The notes beneath the pieces were generated by a model that ran no database searches, was not told the origin of the DNA, and saw only the letters and a program-made list of their open reading frames with translations. 64,000 bases of DNA from NCBI RefSeq assembly GCF_018215265.2, contig NZ_CP136562.1, positions 3,410,001 to 3,474,000 on the forward strand, read 5' to 3'. This document shows, in pieces, positions 32,077 to 42,408 of this stretch. The translations under genes were made by a program, and so were the position numbers. This stretch comes from Paenarthrobacter sp. GOM3 (lineage in GTDB: Bacteria; Actinomycetota; Actinomycetes; Actinomycetales; Micrococcaceae). Position 1 is the stretch's first letter, and each line of letters opens with the position of its first letter.

Positions 32077-32472
32077 TTATGCCTCCACCAGCCACTCCAG
32101 GGCTTCTGTTTCGGAAGTGAAGAACTTGGTGGGGCATGGAGGCTTCATAATGCCAAGGAAGAAATTGGCAATCACCCTGTCCACCGGAGACGCACCCCAC
32201 AGGGCGATGCGATTGGCTTGGCAGGGCTTGGCGAACACCGATCTGGCGCCACGGGTGACGTCGTCCGTGGTCGCCATGTCAACAATCATGGGGTGCCGGT
32301 CTTCGCCGCACAGTTCATTGACCCTGTCCATGGCCCGTTGGGCATCCGATTCCTGGATCCTGGCGCCGCGCGGCCACGTCAGGCGCAGGATTCCCTGCTC
32401 TTCGAGTTCAAGTTCGAACGACACCTGCTGGTGGTCTTGCGGTGTAGCGTGCTGATCCACAGTGCTCCTCAT
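32077..32472 (-). CDS. STAS/SpoIIAA-like small protein
   Basis: 131 residues from the ATG at 32472. An alternating beta-alpha pattern (EEQGILRLTWPRGARIQESDA, HPMIVDMATTDDVTRGAR, NRIALWGASPVDRVIANFFLG, TKFFTSETEALEWL) resembles the STAS/SpoIIAA-like actinobacterial family sometimes called DUF7793. No Ser phosphorylation motif could be confirmed. It is divergent from a histidine kinase, with a shared 205-bp control region, so a partner-switch or signalling link is possible. A longer frame to 32889 is rejected because it runs through the opposite-strand kinase. Confidence 0.65.
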   Translation of the reverse strand: MRSTVDQHATPQDHQQVSFELELEEQGILRLTWPRGARIQESDAQRAMDRVNELCGEDRHPMIVDMATTDDVTRGARSVFAKPCQANRIALWGASPVDRVIANFFLGIMKPPCPTKFFTSETEALEWLVEA

Positions 32473-32677
32473 GCGTTTCGGTGCCCGTGCCGGGGCTGAC
32501 GTCGTCACCCGGTTCGGCTCCCTCAAGGCTGACGAATCCATCGGCCAATGTAAAGGGTGTGTTCCACGACTCATCCGGAGGATTTCACGCGGGGAAGCCG
32601 CGAGCCTCAATGCCGCTGATAGGGTGTTGCCAAATCCGGAAATACCGTGAATGGAACGTTGGAACGGAAGGGGCTCC

Positions 32678-34318
32678 GTGGGCGAGACCGTTGCCGATGT
32701 ACAGCACTCTCCGTCCGCCCTTGTGGCGGATTCGGACGGGGACCGTTTGGCCGCTGCCCAAGCTGCGCTCACCTCAGCCGGCTTCGACGTTTTTACTGCT
32801 TCGGACAGTGCGGCATTGGCCCTCAAGCTCCAGCACCACAGTCCTGCCGTGATCGTTGCCGGGAGCAGTTTGGCACGCGGCCTGCGCAATGCGGGGATTC
32901 CGGTGCTGCTGCTCCTGGAAGCCGAAGAATCAGTGGACTTCGCCGACGTCGAGTCCTGGCGGATGGCGGACTACCTCCTGGGCCCAGTGCGGTCCGGGGA
33001 ACTGGTCCACCGCGTCAGGACCCTGATCGGCCGGTCAAAGGAACGCGACCGCTCCCGTGGGGAGATCGAGGCCCTCCGCGAAAGCCTTCGGAATGTGTCA
33101 TCGGCGATCCGGGAAACCAACGATCCGCAGCTGATCGCCGACCACGTGGTGCGTGGCTTCGGCGAGGCCCTGGGCGTGGACCACGTCTGGTTTGCGACGT
33201 TCCGGGACGAACGCGTCCCCAACATCCGTGCCCAATGGAACCGTCCGGGCGTGCCACCCCTTCCCGCCAGGCTGGGTGACAGTGAAGACGCCATCACCGA
33301 GACAGCCAATAGGCTGTGGGCCGAGGCCGACGTCCTTGCGGTGTCGGACCACAGGAAAGATCCCGAATCACCGATCGCCAGGGCTTTGCGGGATTGGTCC
33401 TGCGAGCTGCACCCCGTCTCCACCGTGCTGCTGCCGGTCGGCGAAGGCGCAACTGCCATGGGCATCATCCTGCTGTCCACCGTGCAGGACGAGCACGACT
33501 GGACCCGTCCCGAGATCGCGCTGATGCAGCACGTGGCCGGGAACGTGGCACACGGTCTCATCCAAGGCCACCTCATCAGCGCCCAGCAGCGGGTGCTGCA
33601 CCAACTCCGGCAACTGGACAAGGCCAAGACCGACTTCCTGGCCACCGTAAACCATGAGCTGCGTACTCCCTTGACCTCCATCACCGCGTACCTTGACATG
33701 ATCCAGGACGGTTCCGGCGGCCCGGTACCTGAAGGCATTTCCAAGATGCTGGACGTCATCGGCCGCAACTCGGATCGCCTCCGCCGCCTCATCGAGGACA
33801 TGCTCACCGTGTCCATGCAGGACGGCAGCAACCTGGACCTCAAGCCTGTGGACATCGCCAAGCTGCTTCAGGTAGTTGTGGCAACGCTGCGGCCGCTGGC
33901 CGAGTCCCGGCACGTTTCCGTTTCCTTCACGGAGGCGAGCGAGGACATCGAAATCACGGCCGACGAAGCAAAGCTGGAGCAGGTCTTCACGAACATCGTG
34001 GCCAACGCCATCAAGTTCACCCCCGAGGGCGGCCGCGTAGGCATCACCAGCTCGGTGTCAGCCTCCGATAACGGCGCACGGGCGGCCACTGTGCGGATCG
34101 CCGACAACGGCCTGGGCATCCCCGAGCACGACCTCCCCCACATCTTCACGCGCTTCTACCGGGCCTCCAATGCCACCTCCGCCGCAGTCCCCGGCAGCGG
34201 GCTGGGGTTGGCCATTGCCCACGACATCATCAGCCGTCACATGGGCCGGCTCCTGCTGGATTCCACGCTGGGCTCCGGGACGACCGTGTCCGTGGAGCTG
34301 CCGGTGGGAGGGCCGTAA
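32678..34318 (+). CDS. Sensor histidine kinase: receiver-like, GAF, HisKA, HATPase
   Basis: About 546 residues, no membrane segment. Residues about 15-110 form a receiver-like fold (ALVADSDGDRLAAAQAAL) that lacks a clean phospho-Asp motif (VIVAGSS), so it is probably a pseudo-receiver. A GAF-like region follows (ADHVVRGFGEALGVDHVWFA), then HisKA (FLATVNHELRTPLTSITAYL) and HATPase (VFTNIVANAIKFTPEGG, ADNGLGIPEHD, GSGLGLAIAHDII). GTG 32678 has GGAAGGGG 5 bases upstream and is preferred; ATG 32651 would add nine residues. No cognate regulator is adjacent. Divergent STAS-like gene may be related. Confidence 0.9.
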   Translation: MGETVADVQHSPSALVADSDGDRLAAAQAALTSAGFDVFTASDSAALALKLQHHSPAVIVAGSSLARGLRNAGIPVLLLLEAEESVDFADVESWRMADYLLGPVRSGELVHRVRTLIGRSKERDRSRGEIEALRESLRNVSSAIRETNDPQLIADHVVRGFGEALGVDHVWFATFRDERVPNIRAQWNRPGVPPLPARLGDSEDAITETANRLWAEADVLAVSDHRKDPESPIARALRDWSCELHPVSTVLLPVGEGATAMGIILLSTVQDEHDWTRPEIALMQHVAGNVAHGLIQGHLISAQQRVLHQLRQLDKAKTDFLATVNHELRTPLTSITAYLDMIQDGSGGPVPEGISKMLDVIGRNSDRLRRLIEDMLTVSMQDGSNLDLKPVDIAKLLQVVVATLRPLAESRHVSVSFTEASEDIEITADEAKLEQVFTNIVANAIKFTPEGGRVGITSSVSASDNGARAATVRIADNGLGIPEHDLPHIFTRFYRASNATSAAVPGSGLGLAIAHDIISRHMGRLLLDSTLGSGTTVSVELPVGGP

Positions 34319-34467: not shown

Positions 34468-34638
34468 TTAGTTTGGCCACCAACCGATGCTGGTGGTGTT
34501 CGTCTTGGTTGTGGTGACGCTGTTAGGCCACCAACCAATGGCCGAGCTGTCCTGCGAAGAGTCGGCATTGGCTGGAGCAGCGAATCCCGTTACTGCCAGA
34601 ACCGCCGCCATGAGCAGGGTTGCCGCAAATTTTTTCAT
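34468..34638 (-). CDS. Small secreted peptide precursor with two IGWWPN repeats
   Basis: A 56-codon gene. The product begins MKKFAATLLMAAVLAVTG and a Sec signal peptide ends at APANA, giving a predicted 31-residue mature peptide. The peptide has IGWWPN twice: once in the middle and once as the last six residues, separated by a Thr/Ser-rich spacer (SVTTTKTNTTS). No Cys. AAAGGG lies 9 bases before the ATG, a TATAGT -10 element lies about 65 bp upstream, and a terminator follows. These signs support a real gene. It is divergent from the TPR/GGDEF-EAL pair. Repeated hexapeptides at a C terminus recall pheromone or antimicrobial precursors; function unknown. Confidence 0.75.
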   Translation of the reverse strand: MKKFAATLLMAAVLAVTGFAAPANADSSQDSSAIGWWPNSVTTTKTNTTSIGWWPN

Positions 34639-34676
34639 CCGCTATGCCCTTTCGTACTGATGCGAATTTGTTGTGT

Positions 34677-34710
34677 GTGACTTGAATAAAGTCACGGGGC
34701 AAACTATACG
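34677..34710. promoter_or_regulatory. Overlapping divergent promoters with dyad operator
   Basis: GTGACTT-gaata-AAGTCAC (34677-34695) is a perfect 7-bp inverted repeat. On the plus strand TTGAAT (34682-34687), a 17-base spacer and TATACG (34705-34710) form a near-consensus promoter for the TPR gene. On the minus strand TATAGT (34708-34703) could be the -10 of the peptide gene. A protein bound to the dyad would cover the plus -35 and the minus start site. Confidence 0.65.
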
Positions 34711-34730
34711 AGCTTTTCGTCTGTAATGAC

Positions 34731-35798
34731 ATGGATAATGGGCATATGCAAAGTCCGCAGCTCGCCGCCCACGTAGTAGCCGGGCTTTCGGCACGTGCCA
34801 AATGGAAGGAGCGGGACTTCGACGAAGCCGCTCGTTTGGCGAGTGAAGCCGCCACCATGGCTACGCTGGCCGGCGACGAAGAAGCATGGTGGAACATGCG
34901 CTACCTGCAGGCTGAGTGCCTGCGTGACCAGGGCCGGATCGAGGAATTCCTTGCCCTGGTTTCCGAACTCAACGATCACCCCCTTACTGCCACCTCAGCA
35001 GAGCTTGGCGCCAAGGCCGGCACCATGGTTGCCGTTGCCCTCCAAGGGCTGGGCCGGTTGGCGGAGGCGGCGACCATGGCGGCAGACGCAGCGAAACTTG
35101 CGGCCCGGGACACCGACCTGCTCTACGTCCAGATCCTCGCCCAACGTGCCCTGATCGCCGCCCTGGCCGAAAGCCGCCTGCTCGATGACGCCTGGCGGGA
35201 GTGCTTGGCCCTGGAGACGCTGCTGACAGAGGATGTGGACGAGGACACCGCGGGCAAGGGCTACTGGGTGATTGGCAACGTTGCATTCCTTGCAGACCGC
35301 GTCAACGACGGAGGGCGGTACCACGACCTCGCGGCTGAGCTGCTTTCGCCGTCAAAGGACGTTGATCTCTGGGCCCGCTTCAACAGGGCCTCCGCCGAAA
35401 TGCGCCTCCAGGCGAAACTCAGCGACGCCGCTACCCTCCGCTGCATTGAAAGGGCCGAGCTCGCCACGGACATTGTGGGTGGCTCCGAAAGGGACCACTT
35501 GGAAATGTCCCTGGTCCGGGCCCATTGGCATTTCCTCAGCGGAGATATGCAGCAGGCTGCGGCAATCCTTGAACCTCTTTGTGCGCGGTCCTCCATTTTG
35601 GCCACGCAAACCTCCGCGGAAGCGCACTTCCTCCTCGCGCGGACGCTGCTCGAATTGGGCCGCCGGGATGAAGCGCTTGCAAATTTTGACGAAGCAGCCA
35701 CACTGTTCGAACAGGCCGCACTGCCTGAACGAAGCGCCGCCGTCCGCGAACACCTACGGCATAACGATGAGCAACGAGGCCAGCCGCACGGGGGGTGA
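34731..35798 (+). CDS. Tetratricopeptide-repeat protein
   Basis: 355 residues, all helical, with six to eight TPR-like pairs from the N terminus: ARAKWKERDFDEAARLASEA, GRLAEAATMAADAAKLAARD, DAAILE-type helices and the clean final repeat AHFLLARTLLELGRRDEALANFDEAATLFEQA. No DNA-binding or membrane domain. It stops just before the GGDEF-EAL gene (spacing 2 bp), so the two are likely co-translated. TPR superhelices bind peptides or proteins; the divergent secreted-peptide gene makes a peptide-binding role attractive but unproven. Start: ATG 34731 or in-frame ATG 34746; neither has a strong SD. Confidence 0.85.
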   Translation: MDNGHMQSPQLAAHVVAGLSARAKWKERDFDEAARLASEAATMATLAGDEEAWWNMRYLQAECLRDQGRIEEFLALVSELNDHPLTATSAELGAKAGTMVAVALQGLGRLAEAATMAADAAKLAARDTDLLYVQILAQRALIAALAESRLLDDAWRECLALETLLTEDVDEDTAGKGYWVIGNVAFLADRVNDGGRYHDLAAELLSPSKDVDLWARFNRASAEMRLQAKLSDAATLRCIERAELATDIVGGSERDHLEMSLVRAHWHFLSGDMQQAAAILEPLCARSSILATQTSAEAHFLLARTLLELGRRDEALANFDEAATLFEQAALPERSAAVREHLRHNDEQRGQPHGG

Positions 35799-35800
35799 GC

Positions 35801-37357
35801 ATGTCCGAAGGAAATATCTCCAACGAGGATCCCCGTTTGGGGTTGCTGCTGGACGGTATCGTGCGGTTGGCAGCTGGTGACCTGAACACCAGGATCGAGG
35901 TCTCCGACGCCCGAGATGAGATCGATGCCGTGATCATGGGTACAAACCTCCTGGCCGAGGACCTCCAGATCATCTACGAGGAACTGGAGCAGCGGGTCAA
36001 CGCCCGGACGCAGCAGCTCAACCAGGCACACCTGGCAATGCGCCACATGGCCATGACGGATCCCTTGACGGGCCTGAATAACCGTTCAGCGTTCGCCAAC
36101 GCACTGGCCGAGGCCCAGGCGACCGGGCAGAAGGGCAACAAGCGGCCCGCCATCCTGCTGCTGGACATGGACGGGTTCAAGTCGATCAATGACACCTTGG
36201 GCCACACCATCGGGGACAAAGTCCTTGAAACCGTTGCCGCCCGGATCAGCGGGGCAGTCCGCGATCAGGACATGGTTGCCCGCATGGGCGGCGACGAATT
36301 CGCCGTCATGATCCCGGACGTAACCCCTGCCGAAGCGGCTTCGATTGGCAATCGCATCCTCGCGTCCGTGGTGGGCGTCATGGAGATCGAGGGCCAACAC
36401 CTGCGTTGCGGGGCCAGCATGGGCCTGCGGATGGCTGACCCCGGCCACCGCGCCGAAGAGCTGATGATGGAAGCGGACATCGCCATGTACGAGTCCAAGG
36501 CGGACGGACGGGGCAAGCTCAAGGTCTTTGAACCGGCCATGCTTCATGCCCGGCAAATGCGGAACCAGCTGGTGGGCGAACTCAAAGAGGCCATCGCAGG
36601 TTCGCAACTGGTGCTCTACTACCAGCCGATCATCCGTTTGGACACCCGTGAAATCGAGGGTGTGGAGGCTTTGGTCCGCTGGAACCATCCCACCCGCGGG
36701 TTGGTCATGCCGGACGAGTTCATCCCGATTGCCGAGGAAACGGGCATGATCTCCGATTTGGGTGGTTGGGTGCTCCGCACCGCCGTCGAGCAGTTAAGGC
36801 AATGGCGCAGCGATCCCCTGACGGCGGGCCACAACTTCAGCATGCGCATCAACGTTTCGGCCGCCGACCTGCAGCGGCTTGAGTTCATCGAGGACGTCAG
36901 GGAAGCGTTGGCGGCCGCGGACCTGGACCCATCGCTGCTGGTGCTGGAACTGACCGAGAGCGCCGTCATCCTTGGCAACGACCTGGACCGCTACACGCTC
37001 AACAGTCTGCGCCGCCTGGGCGTGGGACTGGAAATCGACGACTTTGGTACGGGCTACTCCTCCATCAGCTACCTGCGTCGGCTGCCCGTCGATACCGTCA
37101 AAGTGGACCGGACCCTGCTATCCGCCCTGGGGAGCGACCCCTCACAGCCGGCACTGCTCGCCGCCGTCCTGCAGCTTATCCGGGCCTGTGGCCTGAATGC
37201 CGTGTGGGAAGGCATCGAGACTGCCGAGCAAGCCCAGTACCTCCTGGGCATCGGCTGCACCAGCGGCCAGGGTTACTACTTCAGCCGGCCGTTGCCCGGG
37301 GAGCAGCTAACGGAGCAGCTGAAGCACCACAAGACGTGGCCCGTCGCCGAGGACTAA
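35801..37357 (+). CDS. GGDEF-EAL dual-domain c-di-GMP enzyme
   Basis: 518 residues, cytoplasmic. An N-terminal HAMP-like helix pair (GIVRLAAGDLNTRIEVSDAR) and coiled coil lead to GGDEF (DPLTGLNNRSAFANAL, LLLDMDGFKSINDTLGH, intact RMGGDEFAV). The EAL domain follows with VEALVRW, LELTES, IDDFGTGYSSISYLRRLP, KVDR and EGIET. Both active sites look intact, so it could make and break c-di-GMP. GGGGGG lies 5 bases before ATG 35801; a GTG at 35795 overlaps the TPR stop but is too close to that site. Operon with the TPR gene, which may control it. Confidence 0.93.
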   Translation: MSEGNISNEDPRLGLLLDGIVRLAAGDLNTRIEVSDARDEIDAVIMGTNLLAEDLQIIYEELEQRVNARTQQLNQAHLAMRHMAMTDPLTGLNNRSAFANALAEAQATGQKGNKRPAILLLDMDGFKSINDTLGHTIGDKVLETVAARISGAVRDQDMVARMGGDEFAVMIPDVTPAEAASIGNRILASVVGVMEIEGQHLRCGASMGLRMADPGHRAEELMMEADIAMYESKADGRGKLKVFEPAMLHARQMRNQLVGELKEAIAGSQLVLYYQPIIRLDTREIEGVEALVRWNHPTRGLVMPDEFIPIAEETGMISDLGGWVLRTAVEQLRQWRSDPLTAGHNFSMRINVSAADLQRLEFIEDVREALAAADLDPSLLVLELTESAVILGNDLDRYTLNSLRRLGVGLEIDDFGTGYSSISYLRRLPVDTVKVDRTLLSALGSDPSQPALLAAVLQLIRACGLNAVWEGIETAEQAQYLLGIGCTSGQGYYFSRPLPGEQLTEQLKHHKTWPVAED

Positions 37358-40812: not shown

Positions 40813-40867
40813 CTCTAAGTCAGGCTGGTTGTGAGTCAGTCGGTGATTGAAGAGAGCAGGAGCTGCC

Positions 40868-41302
40868 ATGACTGTTGGGCCGCGTGGTATTAGCCGCGAT
40901 GAGATCAGGGATTTGGTGCATGAGTATTACGTGCAGCCGTACGGGACGAGGAAGGAGTGGCTTGCTTCCCAGCCAGTGACTGAGTGGACGTTCCGGAAGT
41001 GGCGGAGGATGATCCAGGAAGGTGACCTCGACCGGAATCTGATTCCACGAGAGCATGGGAACATGGCCCGCACGAATGGCGAGTGGTCCGCGTTTGAAAG
41101 AGCGCGCGCCAAGGAAATCGCCCAACACCAGTCCGACGTCGAACAGCTCAAGAGCCGCGTCCGGGAGCTTGAGGGCACGAATGAAGCTTTGGGAAAAGCT
41201 ATCGGGCTCTTGCACGGGTTGAGCGTGCCAGAGCCCGATACGGCTCCGACGAACGATCCGAAAAGTTCATCGAAGCCGAGAACCTCCTCGTCCGGGACCT
41301 GA
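40868..41302 (+). CDS. IS3-family transposase OrfA
   Basis: 144 residues, ATG with AGGAG 6 bases upstream. N-terminal helix-turn-helix region ISRDEIRDLVHEYY and QPVTEWTFRKWRRMIQ binds the IS ends, and a coiled coil (ARAKEIAQHQSDVEQLKSR) serves for multimerisation, as usual in IS3 OrfA. A GGGAAAA slippery site near codon 109 sends ribosomes into the orfB frame. The tail after that site (LLHGLSVPEPDTAPTNDPKS) is only made by non-shifted ribosomes. Confidence 0.85.
   Translation: MTVGPRGISRDEIRDLVHEYYVQPYGTRKEWLASQPVTEWTFRKWRRMIQEGDLDRNLIPREHGNMARTNGEWSAFERARAKEIAQHQSDVEQLKSRVRELEGTNEALGKAIGLLHGLSVPEPDTAPTNDPKSSSKPRTSSSGT
41191..41197 (+). promoter_or_regulatory. Programmed -1 frameshift site (GGGAAAA)
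   Basis: In the orfA frame this reads G-GGA-AAA, the canonical X-XXY-YYZ heptamer for -1 slippage. orfB is open in the -1 frame from 41185 to 42408, so slippage would yield an OrfAB fusion. A downstream stimulatory structure was not assigned. Confidence 0.75.
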
Positions 41303-42408
41303 AAGAGCTCACCGGCTCGCAGCGGCAAGCCCTCAAGGTCGCGGGCGTTTCGCGCTCGACGTGGCACTACCGGCAGAACCCCCGCGAACGAGTGCAAGAC
41401 CCGCTCGGGCAGTCCGAGCGGGCCTATGAATCGCGGATCAGCGGCCGGGACCGGGACCGGATCGCCGAATACATCATGGGAGGCTGGGCCGATCAGGTCT
41501 CCGTTGACCATTCCTTCGCGACGGCCTGGGACGCCGGGGTGATGCTTGCGTCCCGCCGCACCTGGTGGCGGGTCGCAGCGCAGATCGAGGACCAGATGCT
41601 CCGCCCAACCGTCCCTACCAGAAGCGAGAACAAACGGCCCCCGCGGGAGAAACCCGTTCTGAAGGCCACCGGCCCGGGCCAGGTCTGGTCCTGGGACATC
41701 ACCGATCTCTACTCGCCCTGGCGCGGAAAAACGTTCAAGGCCTACTCGGTTCTGGATATCTACTCCCGGCAGATGGTCGCCTGGCGGATCGAGGAACGAG
41801 AAGCGGACCACCTCGCAGCCGAGATGTTCGAAACCGCCATCGCCCGGCACGGCGCACCCCGCATCGTTCATGCCGATTCAGGGCCGGCCATGAAATCAAA
41901 CCTGCTCCGTGACACACTCACCGGACACGGCGTGGAACTCACCCACAAACGGCCCTACGTATCGAACGACAACCCTTTTTCAGAGTCCGGGTTCCGGACC
42001 ATGAAATACAGGCCCGGCTACCCACGGATCTTCAAAGATCTCGAAACCGCCAGGACCTACCTCGGAGACTACGTGCCCTGGTACAACACCGAGCACAAAC
42101 ACTCAGGCATCGCCTTGTTTTCACCAGCTGAAGTCCACGACGGCTCCTGGAAAAACATCTGGAAGACACGCGACCGAGCCCTCCAGCACTACTACGACCA
42201 GAACCCTCACCGATTCCGGCAACGACCCACCACACCGGCCCCACGAAGCCACGTCGGAATCAACCTCCCCGAAAAACCAACCAACAACCCACCCACTGAC
42301 TCCACACAGTTTGACAACCTGCGCTTTCAGGCCAACCCTGACTCACATCCCACGCCAGCGGTGGCCGACGGCGGCGGCCAGGTGACGCCGTCGCGCCCTC
42401 GGCGTTAA
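41191..42408 (+). CDS. IS3-family transposase OrfB (as OrfAB fusion)
   Basis: The integrase catalytic domain has the first Asp in VWSWDITDLY, the second in IVHADSGPAMK and Glu in NPFSESGFRTMKY, with exactly 35 residues between the last Asp and Glu (D-D-35-E of IS3). The N-terminal orfB part (ENLLVRDLKELTGSQRQALK) has the linker helix typical of the group. The reading frame has no good own start and is best explained by -1 slippage at 41191. The last 25 or so residues run past the IS end into flanking repeat DNA. Confidence 0.85.
   Translation, partial: GKSYRALARVERARARYGSDERSEKFIEAENLLVRDLKELTGSQRQALKVAGVSRSTWHYRQNPRERVQDPLGQSERAYESRISGRDRDRIAEYIMGGWADQVSVDHSFATAWDAGVMLASRRTWWRVAAQIEDQMLRPTVPTRSENKRPPREKPVLKATGPGQVWSWDITDLYSPWRGKTFKAYSVLDIYSRQMVAWRIEEREADHLAAEMFETAIARHGAPRIVHADSGPAMKSNLLRDTLTGHGVELTHKRPYVSNDNPFSESGFRTMKYRPGYPRIFKDLETARTYLGDYVPWYNTEHKHSGIALFSPAEVHDGSWKNIWKTRDRALQHYYDQNPHRFRQRPTTPAPRSHVGINLPEKPTNNPPTDSTQFDNLRFQANPDSHPTPAVADGGGQVTPSRPRR

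Follow-up and report, generated by a model that had tools for sequence, protein, structure and literature searches.

The window analysed here is a stretch of 64,000 nucleotides from Paenarthrobacter sp. GOM3 (contig NZ_CP136562.1, positions 3,410,001 to 3,474,000), and our subject is a set of three genes within it: a very small gene for an exported peptide precursor, the divergent gene of a tetratricopeptide repeat (TPR) protein, which we call TPR-A, and the gene of a GGDEF-EAL protein, an enzyme of cyclic di-GMP (c-di-GMP). The original prediction, made from the letters alone, had placed and described these genes correctly, including the coupling of the TPR gene to the enzyme gene, and we consider them here as a candidate peptide-signalling module. 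Its features are the following:

34468..34638 (-): precursor peptide gene, 56 amino acids, a Sec-type signal and then about 31 polar residues; conserved in relatives
34564..34638 (-): signal-peptide part, residues 1-25, with an AxA site predicted by eye, and hydropathy
34522..34539 (-): first IGWWPN copy, residues 34-39 (translation of the open reading frame (ORF), orthologue comparison)
34471..34488 (-): second IGWWPN copy, residues 51-56, the last six residues (same basis)
34731..35798 (+): TPR-A, 355 amino acids, candidate peptide receptor without a helix-turn-helix (HTH) domain (Pfam, predicted structure)
35795..37357 (+): GGDEF-EAL protein, candidate output, with a weak HAMP-like N-terminal match (Pfam)

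The precursor gene translates as MKKFAATLLMAAVLAVTGFAAPANADSSQDSSAIGWWPNSVTTTKTNTTSIGWWPN. Two exact copies of IGWWPN, the second of them C-terminal, stand behind the Sec-type signal (read by eye); the hexapeptide-repeat precursor proposed earlier, predicted to be exported, is present. No Pfam family matched this precursor; the WGxxGxxG family was considered and rejected, its score lying under the cut-off and its match falling mainly on the signal part. TPR-A, whose gene starts 92 bp away on the other strand, gave several TPR-type Pfam matches, of which only ANAPC3 exceeded its cut-off, and no HTH match in Pfam; the receptor fold is a predicted one, a TPR superhelix modelled with a mean predicted local distance difference test score (pLDDT) of 93.6. 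The ORF ending at 37357 matches both GGDEF (E=5e-42) and EAL (E=8e-71) in Pfam and starts either at GTG 35795, overlapping the TPR stop codon at 35796-35798, or at ATG 35801, two bases past that stop. Three further features lie beside or between these genes:

32651..34318 (+): histidine kinase (GAF, HisKA, HATPase_c; Pfam), tail to tail with the peptide gene
32077..32460 (-): DUF7793 (SpoIIAA/STAS-like) protein, recurrent in the c-di-GMP branch described below (neighbourhood survey)
34677..34695: inverted repeat GTGACTT-N5-AAGTCAC, candidate operator between the divergent genes

Of 12 aligned sequences, 11 keep the inverted repeat intact. In the genome it is the sole exact match, and nine further places resemble it with two mismatches each; no inverted repeat of at least 7 bp was found in the two intergenic stretches of HTH-bearing TPR genes that were tried. 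As no DNA-binding domain is recognised in TPR-A, the repeat may bind some other regulator. Elsewhere in the window, at 40847-42408 (+), two ORFs read by eye as an IS3-type transposase pair.

The divergent precursor gene among relatives

We searched for relatives with a TPR profile, which gave 80 loci (without deduplication), nearly all from Arthrobacter or Paenarthrobacter; together with the loci from further genomes of the genus, the family and the order, they made a combined set of 195 TPR genes, 171 of them distinct after deduplication by receptor sequence. A precursor was called by a rule asking for a small secreted ORF with an xWPx motif, the Sec part of the rule being home-made. At 76 of the 80 loci this rule finds a divergent ORF for a secreted precursor containing WP, against 0/80 in the same-strand control; the start of the nearest such ORF lies 90 to 354 bp upstream of the TPR match. 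Two of the four misses (L280, L285) are close to a contig end, a third (L321) aligns with the query from residue 55 onward and not before, and the fourth (L283) is unexplained. In five loci the rule additionally chose one more ORF, on the strand opposite the kinase gene; it therefore gives false positives.

The 171 distinct receptors fall into three classes: 113 without HTH and linked to a homologous GGDEF-EAL gene, 16 without HTH and unlinked, and 42 with an XRE-type HTH, all unlinked. The HTH was called by blastp to two references, and Pfam confirmed it (HTH_31 and HTH_3) in the 3/3 scanned. Among receptors with at least 500 bp of upstream sequence (n=169), a divergent xWPx precursor accompanies 110/112 of the linked HTH-less class, 13/15 of the unlinked HTH-less class and 27/42 of the HTH class, that is 150/169 with the classes pooled. 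The controls gave 0/112 (upstream, same strand) and 12/112 (downstream antisense) for the linked class, 0/169 and 16/169 for all classes. One of the two misses among linked receptors (L077) does have its precursor, some 1.6 kb away from the TPR gene. Conservation of the gene order in relatives, on which the original prediction had staked itself, was thus found. The survey counts include a contig labelled Vibrio cholerae 35D (L288) which carries an Arthrobacter-type set of TPR, peptide and GGDEF-EAL genes; this is most likely Arthrobacter contamination of that assembly.

The motif is conserved too. In 18/18 close orthologues (17 relatives and the window itself) all 36 of the 36 IGWWPN copies are unchanged, while the codons for its Ile, Gly and Pro vary synonymously and the linker varies. 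One might object that GC-rich DNA is rich in small ORFs, that the downstream antisense control passes in the proportion just given, that in five loci a further ORF, antisense to the kinase, passed the rule, and that the gene and its repeat are hence a product of chance. We give practically no credit to this explanation, because 76/80 stands against 0/80 in the control and because the motif copies stay unchanged through synonymous codon changes: the small gene and its IGWWPN repeat are more than chance.

Peptide motifs and receptor clades

In 142 distinct precursors, from which the statistics on the peptides were drawn, the core is usually [IVT]-[GN]-x-W-P-x, the last residue being mostly N, D, H, Y or F, and is present in 1 to 8 copies per precursor; the precursors measure 48 to 140 amino acids beside HTH receptors and 41 to 121 amino acids when linked to a GGDEF-EAL gene. 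In all the multi-copy precursors (70/70) both residues before WP are identical across copies, an identity which may partly stem from recent duplication. Single-copy precursors end one residue past WP in 40/62 cases for the linked class, 7/8 for the unlinked HTH-less class and 1/2 for the HTH class. Some copies abut without any linker, as in IGNWPHIGNWPH (L282), which suggests the hexapeptide as the unit.

The variants of the motif (GWWPN or GWWPD, NNWPY, VGSWPF, IDDWPH, GNWPD and others) are distributed by receptor clade. In three genomes with two adjacent HTH-less receptors (L201, L284, L290) two different motifs are found, and in one of them (L284) each receptor clusters in the tree with the receptors of other genomes that have a similar motif, not with its neighbour. 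Within genomes having two unlinked GWWPN precursors, Ile in one is paired with Ile in the other in 4/4 cases; the covariation is not clear, since 4/10 of those with Thr in one also have Ile in the other.

Four precursors of the GWWPN type (L127, L128, L129, L130) stand alone: no gene for a TPR protein, a GGDEF-EAL protein or a related kinase was found in the 8 kb covered. These, together with the predicted export of the precursor and the higher dose that tandem copies would provide, fit a peptide acting outside the cell, as an antimicrobial or in the matrix or surface, whose production the TPR and c-di-GMP proteins would control. We regard this as rather unlikely: the HTH-less TPR proteins have no DNA-binding domain for control of a promoter, paralogous receptors pair with different motifs, and Phr propeptides are known to be built in this way, from a short core and a variable linker (PMC11343458; this and the other papers are cited here for the part of their text that was available).

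Two receptor kinds and the c-di-GMP branch

The GGDEF-EAL linkage separates the two kinds of receptor: it is present for 113/129 HTH-less TPR proteins and for 0/42 HTH ones in the flanking DNA covered, which for the latter amounted to about 1.5 to 4.6 kb per side, so that an enzyme gene further off would escape. The enzyme gene occurs in two layouts, either downstream of the TPR gene or across the peptide gene on its other side (layout 2). In 110 enzyme loci the signature motifs are GGDEF (109/110), an EAL-type motif (108/110: 87 EALVRW, 20 EVLVRW, 1 EALIRW) and DDFGTGYS (107/110). A DUF7793 gene likewise lies near 93/113 linked TPR genes and near none of the unlinked ones (0/16 HTH-less, 0/42 HTH), with recurrences at L264 (5101-5508), at L203 (3791-4168) and, fused to the TPR, at L265. 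The fusion is seen in one genome, that of Arthrobacter globiformis NBRC 12137, where TPR and DUF7793 form a single frame of 493 residues, and likewise in a metagenomic protein of 495 amino acids.

These fusions lend some weight to the idea that peptide and TPR protein are a true pair while the GGDEF-EAL protein is merely a co-regulated neighbour, the TPR target being elsewhere, for instance in DUF7793 or the kinase; Rap, for its part, acts on a phosphorelay protein. Further points for this idea are that the TPR and GGDEF-EAL genes lie at most 20 bp apart in just 18/63 downstream layouts in the same direction, and that 16/129 HTH-less TPR genes have no GGDEF-EAL gene in the flanking DNA covered. 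Against it stands the linkage itself, found across two gene orders and confined to HTH-less receptors. We take this to be the strongest of the alternatives, at odds of no better than a minor possibility.

The kinase must be considered too. In 11/11 loci (L131-L138, L140-L142) the genes of a further GWWPN precursor and of a kinase paralogue stand tail to tail, with no TPR gene in the 8 kb covered; at L131 an OmpR-like response regulator is seen by eye upstream. The linked kinase, and not the TPR protein, might then be the sensor of the peptide. We find this improbable, as the kinase at 32651-34318 has no clear membrane helix (its highest 19-residue hydropathy is 1.58) and as the loci of layout 2 and of the A. 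agilis type have no such kinase within the flanking DNA covered.

In a tree of the quick kind, with 83 representatives and long HTH branches, the HTH label changes twice and the receptors without HTH fall into a single group (54 rows; SH-aLRT, the Shimodaira-Hasegawa-like likelihood ratio test, 98), except for L186, the HTH part of which was matched in another reading frame. The window genome itself holds both kinds, TPR-A and an HTH-bearing protein which we call TPR-B, the latter with a precursor of its own:

3589523-3590773 (L175 1524-2771): TPR-B, the HTH-TPR gene of the sister pair
L175 1183-1398 (-): its 71-amino-acid precursor, divergent, with IGNWPDPM twice

The three EAL genes of this genome all lie more than 100 kb from TPR-B. 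This sister pair, the DUF7793 gene, the kinase as a part of the module and the variable copy number all go beyond what had originally been predicted.

The relatives belong to Arthrobacter, Paenarthrobacter and other Micrococcaceae. At least two TPR matches are present in 121/198 congeneric genomes (hand count), and a search that started from the HTH-TPR protein gave matches of one kind or the other in 144/295 genomes and 17/32 genera of the family (1e-20). At the level of the order, 18/297 genomes match at E<=1e-30, three of them from another family. That family has four loci, two without a candidate precursor (L232, L244) and two where an HTH-TPR gene has a divergent one (VGGSWPT three times in L230; SDTWPA in L231); with these two pairs, the origin of the system may predate the family. 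At the level of the phylum, 5/396 genomes match at E<=1e-25, a weak test in which four candidates per genome were scored, and no precursor was found at the two new class-level matches (L325, L326). A mobile origin of TPR-A was also considered and set aside; tblastn gave no match in the plasmid collection (1e-10) or in the phage collection (1e-5).

Relation to known systems and the proposed circuit

RRNPP systems are described by a receptor of 250-500 amino acids with TPRs and a propeptide gene adjoining the receptor gene (PMC10075063), and surveys present them as systems of Firmicutes/Bacillota (PMC10075063, PMC9765709). The module has a propeptide with an export signal, a TPR protein of 355 amino acids and the adjacency of their genes; its host is no member of Bacillota. 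We use the term RRNPP-like and do not count the module as a member, because the profile search showed no relation in sequence to any known RRNPP receptor and because the phylum is a different one. The likeness to RRNPP signalling suggested by the original prediction was upheld in part: HTH paralogues with repeat precursors of their own and a similarity of the predicted TPR-A structure to Rap and NprR speak for it, while the fold argument is weakened by its generality, as set out below.

The differences from known systems can be stated as well. The Rap-Phr systems of Bacillus and its phages, including Rap3T-Phr3T, come from a different phylum, gave no match to the TPR profile in PDB and have the receptor gene followed by the propeptide gene, whereas the genes of the Paenarthrobacter module are divergent. 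Unlike Rap-Phr, this module also has a GGDEF-EAL gene as its candidate output and the motif [IV]GxWPx, and no three-helix N-terminal domain of the Rap type was identified in TPR-A, no search having been aimed at one. NprR-NprX and PlcR-PapR have HTH-TPR receptors; the HTH-TPR proteins reported here sit in Actinomycetota. RpfR is itself a GGDEF-EAL protein. The sensing of its fatty-acid signal takes place in the enzyme, whereas for the present module we propose a peptide and a TPR protein distinct from the enzyme; the RpfR-DSF (diffusible signal factor) system of Gram-negative bacteria likewise ties a quorum signal to c-di-GMP (PMC6361424). Repeated pheromones within one propeptide are known in Firmicutes (PMC11343458).

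In the available part of a 2026 review, RRNPP systems are given for Gram-positive bacteria and Firmicutes, with no actinobacterial case (PMC13220807). A review of quorum sensing in Actinobacteria, similarly limited, has for Arthrobacter only bioinformatic evidence of the LuxR type, and names a "TPR" component without detail for Streptomyces, Rhodococcus, Saccharopolyspora and Thermobifida (PMC4748050). Searches of open-access literature (titles and the starts of abstracts, with most subscription papers outside it) showed no RRNPP-like system of Actinomycetota and no such peptides. The arrangement of peptide, TPR and c-di-GMP genes looks like an undescribed peptide-signalling system.

We consider it fairly probable that the three genes are an RRNPP-like peptide-signalling module, comparable to Rap-Phr and NprR-NprX, with IGWWPN as the exported signal, TPR-A as the receptor and c-di-GMP as the output. 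The gene anatomy, its conservation, the predicted fold of the receptor, the motif that follows the receptor clade and the GGDEF-EAL linkage confined to HTH-less receptors are the evidence for this. Several observations weigh against it, besides the stand-alone precursors, the possible recent duplication of copies and the loose spacing of the enzyme genes. The structure closest to TPR-A is the eukaryotic LGN, which ranks over Rap; TPR folds are common, which weakens the argument from the fold; the best 50 Foldseek matches contain no RRNPP protein, and the TPR sequence profile found no RRNPP chain in PDB. As many as 15/42 HTH receptors have no visible precursor (when these were rescanned without the WP condition, a single 23-residue frame passed, in L192, and was not counted), and one of the 27 precursors counted for HTH receptors, in L207, has a TTG start and a single QNDWPI and looks spurious. 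Finally we must note that the loci are related, so that the survey counts are not independent events and a Fisher p of 4.5e-27 overstates the case.

For the module as we read it, the peptide processing, the import, the binding to the TPR protein, the target and the direction of the effect on c-di-GMP are what we infer, in the following way. The small gene would give a Sec-exported precursor, from which extracellular proteases would free the hexapeptide IGWWPN, two per precursor. This would be imported again, probably via an Opp-type permease; the 11 SBP_bac_5 matches in the genome make peptide import possible, as a possibility only. Inside the cell IGWWPN would bind the concave groove of TPR-A. 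The HTH-bearing relatives of the receptor would act on transcription, while TPR-A, liganded or free, would have the coupled GGDEF-EAL protein as its target, possibly with DUF7793 in between, and c-di-GMP would be set by cell density.

Taken together, the loci are best read as a family of RRNPP-like pheromone systems in Actinomycetota, in one branch of which DNA binding was lost and a coupling to c-di-GMP arose. With slightly less assurance than for the module, we think it more likely than not that there is a superfamily of peptide pheromones outside Bacillota. In it the receptors of Micrococcaceae, both HTH-TPR and TPR, and a few outliers from another family of the same order would each read a private [IV]GxWPx peptide freed from a tandem-repeat precursor; one branch would have lost the DNA-binding domain of its receptor and been rewired, with the STAS-like DUF7793, to a GGDEF-EAL enzyme, so that density directly sets c-di-GMP. 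If this is true, common soil and plant-associated Actinomycetota would have an encoded peptide language of their own, with words readable from the genome; an intracellular peptide receptor would be connected with c-di-GMP by a short path; and a receptor family would have shifted from transcription to a second messenger.

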